Assembly: GCF_024438035.1 (NCBI RefSeq)
Contig: NZ_JANFQF010000023.1
Span: 1-64,000, forward strand
Direction: 5' to 3'
Source of the DNA: Rhodococcus tibetensis
GTDB lineage: Bacteria > Actinomycetota > Actinomycetes > Mycobacteriales > Mycobacteriaceae
Length of the DNA: 64,000 bases
The notes beneath the pieces were generated by a model. That model was not told the DNA's origin. It searched no databases and saw nothing but the letters and a program-made list of their open reading frames with translations. This document shows positions 26,505 through 28,980 of this stretch, piece after piece. How positions within the stretch are numbered: the stretch's first letter is position 1; every line of letters begins with the position of its first letter. The position numbers were made by a program, and so were the translations under genes.

Positions 26505-26672
26505 CTACTTCTCCAGTTCGGGGGCGTCCGCCTGTAACTCCCCCACCTCGGTTTTGAGGATTCGCATGGAGCGGCCCAGGCCACGGGCGGCGTCCGGAAG
26601 CTTCTTCGACCCGAACAGCACCACGAGCACGACCGCGATGATCGCCCAGTGACTCGGGCTCAGCGCCCCCAC
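26505..26672 (-). CDS. tatA: Short TatA protein (Sec-independent translocase), operon-linked
   Basis: A 55-residue TatA: GTG start ([20 protein letters not shown]), one N-terminal helix, the FG..KKLP hinge ([14 protein letters not shown]) and an amphipathic helix ending with a short Glu-rich tail. TatA proteins are usually 80-95 aa, so the tail is reduced. The start codon shares a base with the upstream stop codon, so it is translationally linked to the RidA-like lipoprotein and probably to the Tat-exported oxidase. The main tatAC genes are not in the window. Confidence 0.88.
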
Positions 26673-27346
26673 TACTGGGGTCCCTCACTGTCGGGGTACA
26701 CGGCATCCACCTCGACCTCGACGAGCCAGCCCGCGGCGGGCAGGCTCGCGACCTCGAGCGCGAACCGGCTGGGACGCGCGGAGTTTCGTTCCATCGGCGC
26801 GGCCGGTTCCGCGGTGCCGAGCGGGACCAGTTCGGTGTCGCCGGTGTCGAGGTTGGTGTTGGCGAAGAACTGCCGGTAGGCGCGGTTCCAGCCGGCGTAG
26901 TCGGCGCGGTCTGTGCCGGGGGCGTTGTCGAGGAACACCCGCATGGTCACGACGTCCTCGAGCGTCAGTCCCTGTGCCTCGAGATTGTCGCGAATCCGCT
27001 TCAGCGCGTTGATGCCCTGCGCTTCGGTGATCGTGACTCCGGCCGGGAGTGCGCCGCCCGCGAACACATCGGTGTCGATGTACGACTCGGGGGTGCCCTC
27101 GGGTGCTGTCTTGTTGAACGCGCCCGGGCCGATGCCGCTCGACTTGTAGACGGCGGTGCCGCCGCCGATCGCCACACCCTGCGCGATCATCGGATTCGCG
27201 TCGCCGGCTTCGAGAACGGACTTCGAGACAAAGGTGCTGCCGGGCGCCTCCGCCGCCGCCTCCTCGGAGGAGCACGACGTCGCCCCGGCGATCAGAGCGG
27301 ATGCTGCGAGCGCGGCGGTCACGGCCTTGGTACGAAAAGACTTCAC
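26672..27346 (-). CDS. Exported RidA-like (YjgF family) lipoprotein
   Basis: Rid-family proteins hydrolyse reactive enamine/imine products of amino acid metabolism. This 224-residue version has an N-terminal signal ([20 protein letters not shown]) ending in a plausible though non-canonical lipobox ATSC (Cys25). The RidA domain occupies about residues 50-218: [29 protein letters not shown], and [10 protein letters not shown] with Arg194 in the place of the catalytic Arg of canonical RidA. An insert of about 40 residues lies near 75-105. GTG start, 29 bases after the oxidase. Periplasmic imine hydrolysis is inferred from this context. Confidence 0.78.
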
Positions 27347-27375
27347 AGTTCAGAACTCCTTGTTCGAGGGGAAGG

Positions 27376-28980
27376 TCAGGCTTCCTGGGCCACGCGCTCG
27401 TGGATGCGGGTGACGATGTCGCGGGCGGACGTCAGGGCGCCGTGCTGCCACGCGATCGCGTTGGACAGGTGATCGCCGGCGAAGTAGATCTTGTCGACGG
27501 GTTCGAGCAGTTTCTCGTACTCGGGAGTGGCTGCCCCGCCGTGCGAGCCGCCGCTGCCCGCCCAGTTGACCCAGGCGCTCTCGGAGTACTTGGTGCGACG
27601 CCAGCTGCCCGAGAACGACGAGGAGATGTCGCGGGTGTATTTCTCGCCGTGGATCTCCGAGCCCTCCGCGATCGCCTTGGCGAGCCGCTGCCGGTGGGTG
27701 AGGGACTCGAACGCTTCCTGTCGCTTGCCGCTGCTGTAGTAGGCGACGACCACACCCCGGTCGGAGTTGTAGTGGTCGTACGGAAACATGATCTGCGAGA
27801 TGTCCTTGTCGGTGTTCGACGCTCCGCCGTAGATGCGGTCCTCCGTCTCCCACCACCGGCGCGAGTACTCGATGCCGAGCTTTCCGGACGACGACGGCTT
27901 GGCCGCCTTCAGCGCGGTGAGCACGTCGGCGGGCAGATTGTTCTGCAGTCGTCCGACGAGGTGCGGCGGGATCGTGCAGATCGCATAATCGGCGGTGAGC
28001 GACTTCTTGGAGCCACCGGCGGTGTATTCGACGGTGACGCCCTCGGACACGTTCCTCATCGACGTGACCTCGGCCCCGAAGACGATGTTGTCGGTGCCGA
28101 TCCTGTCCTGGAACGCGTAGTAGATCCGGTCCATGCCGCCGACCGGGGTGAACATCATCATCGCCTGGTCGTAGCCGAAGTCGAAGCTGAAGTTGCGGCC
28201 GATGCCGCTGCGGATCACCTCCTGCATCGCGAACGGCTTCTTCTCGGTGCCGAAGTTCAGGCCCGCTCCGGGCTCGGAATCGTAACCGCGACGGGAGGAT
28301 CCGAGGTAGCGGCCGTCGTCGGACAGGTCACCGAAGTCGCTGAGGAACTCCGACAGCGCGTCCTTGTCCTCCCGGGTCAGCACCTGGTCCAGGGCGCCCT
28401 GATCGGTGGCCTTCTTCAGCAGCTCCGACATGTAGCCGAACGTGTCGGCCTTCGCGGCCCGGTAGGTGACGGATTGGCCCGACAGCGACGTGTCGCTCTC
28501 GTAGTTCACGAACGTGTTGGCGTTCTGGTTTCCGAACCCCTGGATCTCGACGCCGAGTTCGCGGCAGTAGTCGAGCGTGATGTGGCTCTGCGGGATGCGG
28601 GTGGCGCCGACGTTGTAGAAGTGGCCCTCCGAGAACGTGCACTTCTGCGTCTCGCCATTGAGGTCGGTCTCCTCGGTGCCGCCCCGGGCTGTCCAAACGC
28701 GGCCGCCGGGCCGGGTGCGGGCCTCGAGGACCGTCACCGTGTACCCGGCCTTCTGCAGTTCGAACGCCGAACACAGACCGGCGGGGCCGCCGCCGAGCAC
28801 GACCACGGAGTGACTGCCCTTCACCTTCCCGATCAGATCGCCGGCCGCGAGCGGCTGGAAGGCGCGGGCGGGAGCGGCGGTCGACGGTGCGAGCCCGAGC
28901 GTCGACATCGCACCGTACGCGAGTCCCGCGCCCCCGGTGGCCCCGAGGCCCTTCATGAAAGATCTACGTGTGAATGCCAA
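27376..28980 (-). CDS. Tat-exported L-amino acid oxidase
   Basis: Flavin amine oxidase that deaminates L-amino acids to keto acids with ammonia and hydrogen peroxide. A twin-arginine signal ([10 protein letters not shown], then a hydrophobic stretch and an APARA cleavage site near residue 40) precedes the FAD motif [16 protein letters not shown] (residues 60-74), the [10 protein letters not shown] block, and the C-terminal FAD-binding stretch ([18 protein letters not shown]). It is 534 aa and closely resembles the crystallised Rhodococcus opacus enzyme (from memory). It starts at TTG, with GGGAG eight bases before. It is followed by a RidA-like lipoprotein gene and tatA, and is divergent from an APC permease. 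Confidence 0.93.

Follow-up and report, generated by a model that had tools for sequence, protein, structure and literature searches.

The window analysed here is a stretch of 64,000 nucleotides of the soil bacterium Rhodococcus tibetensis (contig NZ_JANFQF010000023.1, positions 1 to 64,000). Its minus strand carries genes for an L-amino acid oxidase (LAAO), a Rid-family protein and a short TatA, in that order, with the following features:

28980-27376, minus strand: L-amino acid oxidase (LAAO; FAD, Amino_oxidase family), TTG start, 534 aa, PF01593 at 7.1e-41
28846..28980, minus strand: Tat leader of LAAO, residues 1-45, missing from the solved 2jae chain
27346-26672, minus strand: Rid-family predicted lipoprotein, nearest to Rid3, GTG start, 224 aa, PF01042 at 6.4e-12
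27272..27346, minus strand: predicted signal peptide and lipobox of Rid, acceptor Cys25, matching the lipoprotein pattern
26765..26767, minus strand: codon for Arg194 of Rid, which aligns with the Arg of the PAR motif in Rid3 proteins
26672-26505, minus strand: short TatA, the second TatA of the genome, GTG start, 55 aa, over the cut-off of NF001854
26556..26558, minus strand: TatA codon 39, Leu here and Phe in housekeeping TatA (operon versus housekeeping TatA comparison)

The oxidase and Rid genes are separated by 29 bases; Rid and TatA share one base, which ends the Rid stop codon and opens the TatA start codon. The preliminary description of this DNA had claimed this strand arrangement and spacing, a twin-arginine signal on the oxidase, a signal peptide with a Cys25 lipobox on the Rid protein, and a TatA of 55 residues. 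All of these points hold: the LAAO leader contains RRSFMK, the start of Rid matches what we take to be the Gram-positive lipoprotein signal pattern, and the last protein is recognised as TatA both by Pfam (TatA_B_E, 3.5e-16) and by the NCBIfam equivalog model NF001854 (91.3 bits against a cut-off of 72). The observation of a three-gene LAAO-Rid-TatA operon is correct.

The mature oxidase (residues 46-534) aligns with the full length of the chain in PDB 2jae, with 478 of 489 residues identical and 11 differences, and the solved chain begins at LAAO residue 46, after the leader. We take 2jae, together with 2jb1-2jb3, to be the L-amino acid oxidase of Rhodococcus opacus; the protein encoded here is, judged by its sequence, an R. 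opacus-type LAAO. A validated R. opacus LAAO is named in PMC5053998. From this orthologue, which has the same leader boundary, we infer an amino-acid oxidase activity that would release H2O2. A Rid and a TatA adjacent to the R. opacus gene were not found described in the open-licence literature, as far as its available text goes.

LAAO yields imino acids, which are hydrolysed by water or by a Rid protein. The Rid protein of the operon belongs to the Pfam family Ribonuc_L-PSP (46 bits, cut-off 27.3) and lies outside the strict RidA subfamily model TIGR00004 (26.8 bits, cut-off 106.25), and its only matches in the PDB are the Rid3 proteins PFL1385 and PSPTO3006 (PDB 9bkc and 9bka). Arg194, whose position we take to be that of the active-site Arg of the Rid family, is invariant in 46 of 46 alignment rows, as is much of the Rid core; Tyr17 of classical RidA is presumably absent. 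Arg194 lines up with the corresponding arginine of two Rid3 proteins that are reported to clear imines made by LAAO in vitro. Several Rid proteins, Rid3 included, leave less imine for semicarbazide to capture in LAAO assays, and Rid7 gives no such reduction (PMC4433059, PMC5619798); Rid3 proteins lower LAAO-derived semicarbazone formation, for example from 46 to 2 with Leu (PMC5619798, Table 4). The nearest solved relatives of the protein described here, PFL_1385 and PSPTO_3006, both reduce imine capture in such assays, and the available text of PMC5619798 leaves their export undiscussed, with 0 occurrences of 'periplasm' and 'signal'. Since the Rid protein keeps the Rid3-aligned arginine in 46 of 46 rows, extracytoplasmic imine hydrolysis would be the best reading of its function.

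In a set of 61 genomes, our own included, a search with Rid matched 25, and 24 were kept after a partial match (32%, G027) had been dropped. LAAO lies upstream of Rid in 23 of these 24, the remaining one being at a contig end, and TatA lies downstream in 22. A sample of the family gave Rid matches in 17 of 151 genomes, nine of them new, with LAAO adjacent in 9/9 and TatA in 7/9. Over the combined 33 genomes with Rid, LAAO therefore neighbours Rid in 32, the contig ending at the other, and TatA does so in 29, and the Rid-TatA junction shares exactly one base in 28 of these 29. The exception is L011 (listed with L054 as R. jostii NBRC 16295), where the Rid frame has no usual stop and continues into the TatA gene, which is either a real change or a sequence error.

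A further scan with one genome per species found 187 relatives, of which 80 loci bearing 17 genus names were kept; having been made with a Rhodococcus query, this is a non-random sample, and it overlaps the previous one, 22 of the 33 genomes recurring among the 80. LAAO is directly upstream of Rid on the same strand in 77 named loci, the other three being contig ends, and all 77 oxidases carry a Tat-motif pattern. The adjacency of the three genes is more than chance, and the pairing of an oxidase with a signal-bearing Rid, which the preliminary description had read from one locus, proves to be a conserved couple. The same description had named synteny limited to a single strain as grounds for doubt; adjacency recurs in the 33 genomes and the 80 named actinobacterial loci, and a single-strain oddity is ruled out by these surveys. 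In a phylum-wide sample, Rid (E 1e-8) and LAAO (E 1e-60) were not found in the other 395 of 396 genomes among the matches listed, with 7 and 3 candidates per genome, which gives a rough bound on frequency.

We divided the 80 loci into clade I, with 42 loci (L050-L091) from Rhodococcus and near kin, Nocardia and Pseudonocardia, and clade II, with 38 loci from Kribbella, Nocardioides, Arthrobacter, Micromonospora, Kineococcus and others. The lipobox pattern is present in the Rid of the window, in 41 of the 42 clade I Rid proteins and in 2 of the 38 others (L097 and L100). The one clade I locus without the pattern, L081, is situated at the end of a contig and has AAGC all the same, and the remaining clade II starts resemble ordinary signals when judged by eye. 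Within 12 aligned Rid orthologues Cys25 is invariant (12/12), and both it and the hydrophobic stretch are kept whichever start codon, GTG or ATG, is used. Hydropathy was at least 1.6 for every one of the 80 Rid starts. As a control this measure gave no separation, two of the three other Rid paralogues of the genome reaching 2.0 and 1.4 and the third not being picked up, so that the case for export of Rid rests on the conserved signal features. An export signal on Rid is general and the lipobox marks one clade; the protein described here is predicted to be lipid-anchored at the outer face of the membrane.

TatA follows Rid in 22 of the 80 loci, 21 of them in Rhodococcus and near kin plus one in Nocardia puris, whose two genes are free of overlap, and it was not found in any of the 38 clade II loci. 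TatA as a general part of the LAAO-Rid locus is thereby rejected. The preliminary description had called for a search for adjacent oxidase, lipobox-bearing Rid and short TatA: the oxidase-Rid half of that set recurs in 77 of the 80 loci, the lipobox marks one clade and TatA is present in these 22 loci. In a tree of 78 LAAOs built by a quick method and carrying a long-branch warning, the clade I kind needs one change and the presence of TatA four; the lipobox label in this tree was assigned by locus number (L050-L091), so that the pattern-matching L097 and L100 were counted as without it. Since TatA is missing from 4 of 33 genomes and 58 of 80 named loci, the LAAO-Rid couple does not depend on it. 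The module had also been described as self-contained, which does not stand: it has no TatC inside, and the same 4 of 33 genomes have LAAO-Rid without an adjacent TatA.

The genome of R. tibetensis holds three genes of the TatA/TatB family: a housekeeping TatA, located elsewhere beside a frame that we read by eye as TatC, a weak match taken for TatB, and the operon TatA. The operon form retains the FG hinge (FGSKKLP), is shorter than the 21 housekeeping TatA proteins of the genus and is 69-76% identical to them over 49 aligned residues. All 23 operon TatA proteins have Leu at position 39, and all 21 housekeeping ones have Phe. The dN/dS ratios, 0.05-0.21 for the operon TatA in seven chosen pairs and 0.04-0.28 for Rid, indicate that, at the level of the coding sequence, the operon TatA is under purifying selection. 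Of 25 genus genomes searched for the TatA family, 21 have LAAO-Rid, and 19 of these possess the operon TatA; it was not found in the other 4, which lack the operon (one being 75% complete) and have one or two family members each. One genome with LAAO-Rid and no adjacent TatA (G002) has two further TatA/TatB-family matches close together at C1:3860944-3862080.

A TatA encoded beside its own substrate is already known. Campylobacter jejuni TatA2 (57 aa, nap operon) and Pseudomonas stutzeri tatE (nos cluster, cited as essential for denitrification) are likewise short extra TatA proteins encoded beside a Tat substrate, although the substrates and lineages differ and C. jejuni TatA2 also has no Gln8 (PMC4148689). 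In the same paper Phe39 is called absolutely conserved across TatA proteins, and C. jejuni TatA2, which has no Phe39, is described as redundant with TatA1 for the activity of one substrate but is judged not to function properly when TatA1 is missing (PMC4148689). Because the operon TatA is missing Phe39 in the same way, it may assist the main TatA, not replace it; we regard it as an altered TatA paralogue with a putative role in translocation.

Nineteen plasmid records with a Rid hit extend the comparison to other phyla; 14 of these regions were read, and the others (H3-H6 and H13) were judged from coordinates or absence. LAAO lies beside Rid in 12 of the 19, one of the twelve being the actinobacterium Nonomuraea, and there is none in the other seven. 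Plasmids of Ketogulonicigenium, Microvirga, Sulfitobacter and Comamonas carry, in this order, a Tat-motif LAAO, a cytochrome c and a Rid with a signal-like start (one Microvirga stretch is unannotated). In Comamonas odontotermitis (L136) the Rid start given in the annotation leaves out a stretch further upstream that looks like a lipoprotein signal; from that upstream start, a lipid-anchored Rid may exist in Proteobacteria too. A plasmid of Metabacillus dongyingensis (L169:1156-4419) encodes in a row a Tat-motif LAAO (41% identical), a Rid with a signal-like start, tatA and tatC, apparently a separate case of a Tat system beside the LAAO-Rid couple.

The pairing is not obligatory. Seven further plasmid LAAO regions were inspected, and in five no Rid was found within about 3 kb, either in the annotation or by tblastn with six Rid queries at E up to 0.01. 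These five, from Deinococcus (two records), Mesorhizobium, Rhizobium and Dinoroseobacter, each have a cytochrome c; their LAAO genes (L170, L172, L173, L174 and L176) carry a Tat motif, read in all but L176, and the cytochrome c gene is a neighbour. The arrangement of these Deinococcus and alphaproteobacterial loci looks as if electrons were passed to cytochrome c. Of the other two regions, the Paracoccus one combines LAAO, cytochrome c and Rid, and in the Sphingomonas one Rid lies one gene beyond LAAO. Conversely, a signal-bearing Rid with no LAAO within 3 kb occurs in Bosea, Cupriavidus and Proteus. LAAO was not found at the Rid of two Komagataeibacter plasmids (L134 and L162), which keep Rid with an IS21-type element upstream; one of them keeps a short cytochrome c gene.

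Upstream of the operon in the R. tibetensis window lie the following features:

28981..29182, no strand: intergenic region between the operon and the divergent permease, read in 42 sequences
29091..29115, no strand: candidate operator, inverted repeat CGAGAA-N14-TCTCA
29183..30697, plus strand: divergent amino acid permease (APC type), PF00324 at 2.5e-12
30697..31437, plus strand: IclR-type regulator, PF01614 at 1.7e-20 and PF09339 at 1.5e-13

The permease and IclR genes precede the operon in all 40 of the 42 clade I loci that reach that far; among clade II loci the pair is seen in Microlunatus (L093) only. The inverted repeat occurs in 21 of the 42 intergenic regions versus 0.18 expected in a Markov control, a figure to be read knowing that the motif was picked after the alignment had been viewed. 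In relatives the half-sites recur at spacings of 14-17 or 23-25 bases, a difference of about one helix turn. A sigma-70 promoter scan found none. The conserved permease, regulator and inverted repeat would fit control of the operon by amino acids.

Parts of this system have been described before. In Gluconacetobacter diazotrophicus, an operon lao-cccA-ridA likewise unites a Tat-signal LAAO, 34% identical to the R. opacus enzyme, with ridA, and RidA is proposed there to handle LAAO imines; the operon differs in having a cytochrome c, and the available text states export for LAAO, not for RidA, and names no TatA (PMC5053998). This LAAO-cytochrome c-ridA type is not matched in R. tibetensis, where the gap between LAAO and Rid is just 29 bases. 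Chlamydomonas also has a periplasmic LAAO with RidA, LAO1 and LAO2/RIDA being drawn together in the periplasm (PMC10805672) and a periplasmic LAAO complex with RidA being attributed to Vallon 1993 (cited in PMC5053998); it is a eukaryote, and the available text mentions no TatA or lipid anchor. The suggestion in the preliminary description that an exported RidA paired with its imine source may be undescribed was too strong in view of this published operon and periplasmic pair (PMC5053998, PMC10805672). In the open-licence literature, as distinct from subscription papers and as far as its available text goes, we found no exported or lipid-anchored bacterial Rid and no LAAO with its own TatA. 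The LAAO-ridA pairing, Tat-signal LAAOs and operon-linked TatA paralogues are known already, and the conserved version with a predicted exported Rid and TatA is real and new.

We consider it likely that the three genes form an extracytoplasmic amino-acid-oxidising operon, with an exported LAAO, an anchored imine-hydrolysing Rid and a helper TatA. LAAO would fold with FAD in the cytoplasm, leave by the Tat system and be cleaved near residue 45, and outside the membrane it would turn L-amino acids into imino acids and H2O2. Rid would go out by Sec, and a lipid attached to Cys25 would anchor it on the membrane's outer face, where the oxidase emerges. There it would hydrolyse the imino acids that LAAO sets free, yielding keto acids and ammonium before any reaction with envelope amines or sugars can take place. 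The short TatA, a presumed duplicated and altered copy working with the chromosomal TatC and TatB, would add export capacity for LAAO when the operon is on. The physiology is probably nitrogen scavenging; both the nitrogen gain and the harm that imines would do outside the membrane are what we infer from these parts.

Several other explanations compete with parts of this reading. Rid might be mainly structural, binding LAAO so as to retain this soluble enzyme at the membrane and contributing hardly any catalysis or none. In Chlamydomonas, RidA as a subunit of the periplasmic LAAO complex is called non-catalytic (PMC5053998), it is Rid, not the oxidase, that bears the lipid signal, and the Comamonas Rid read from its upstream start also shows a lipobox. 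However, a scaffold has no obvious need for Arg194 and much of the core to be invariant in 46 of 46 rows, and 36 of the 38 clade II Rid proteins have no lipobox pattern, so we regard a structural role as unlikely. That Rid stays in the cytoplasm with its signal-like start unused is very improbable: most studied Rid proteins are indeed cytoplasmic, but Cys25 and the hydrophobic stretch are kept despite the variation between GTG and ATG starts, and distant relatives carry what by eye are ordinary signal-like starts at the same place.

There is a sizeable minority chance that the operon TatA is a redundant duplicate kept for dosage only, with no special link to the oxidase. Four of 33 genomes do without it, and the operon-encoded tatA2 of C. 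jejuni acts beyond its own operon (PMC4148689). The one-base overlap with the Rid stop in 28 of 29 junctions, the split between Leu39 (23/23) and Phe39 (21/21), and the LAAO-Rid-tatA-tatC row of Metabacillus speak against mere redundancy. An operon that mainly makes H2O2 against competitors, with Rid as self-protection and no part in nitrogen gain, appears still less probable than a structural Rid. Some LAAOs are described as limiting bacterial growth, yet the divergent permease and IclR genes of the 40 readable clade I loci suit nutrition better, and the three-gene operon contains no catalase.

Work on Rid proteins has treated them as guards that shield cytoplasmic enzymes from reactive enamines and imines. 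A conserved Rid that is exported and linked to a likewise exported source of imines would extend this idea of protection to the cell envelope. Envelope water already hydrolyses imines, so the need for an enzyme is not obvious, which makes the question one that can be tested with a single well-characterised oxidase. More tentatively, at somewhat short of even chances, the exported LAAO-Rid couple may be widespread and repeatedly refitted, providing extracytoplasmic imine damage control in three phyla (one of them represented by a single record) and having recruited Tat parts of its own at least twice, as the Leu39 TatA of Rhodococcus and as TatA-TatC in Metabacillus. If so, the Rhodococcus TatA would be a substrate-specialised translocase subunit. 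The operon TatA, uniformly changed at a position that has been called absolutely conserved, offers a natural test of TatA specialisation to a single substrate. LAAO further attracts interest as a producer of keto acids, and its natural partner Rid may be useful there.

The other flank of the operon has one feature of note:

26415..26476, no strand: long inverted repeat 3' of TatA, between convergent genes, a possible transcript end; 26405-26490 folds at -36.4 kcal/mol, z -2.9

A terminator scan lists no terminator-like site at 26415-26476, and the repeat has no T run. Beyond it, a 320-aa ORF (25445-26407) has no Pfam or NCBIfam match; of the corresponding regions in ten relatives, three show it fragmented or diverged, and no copy was found in the rest. 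The repeat itself has a partial second match of 24 bases elsewhere in the genome.
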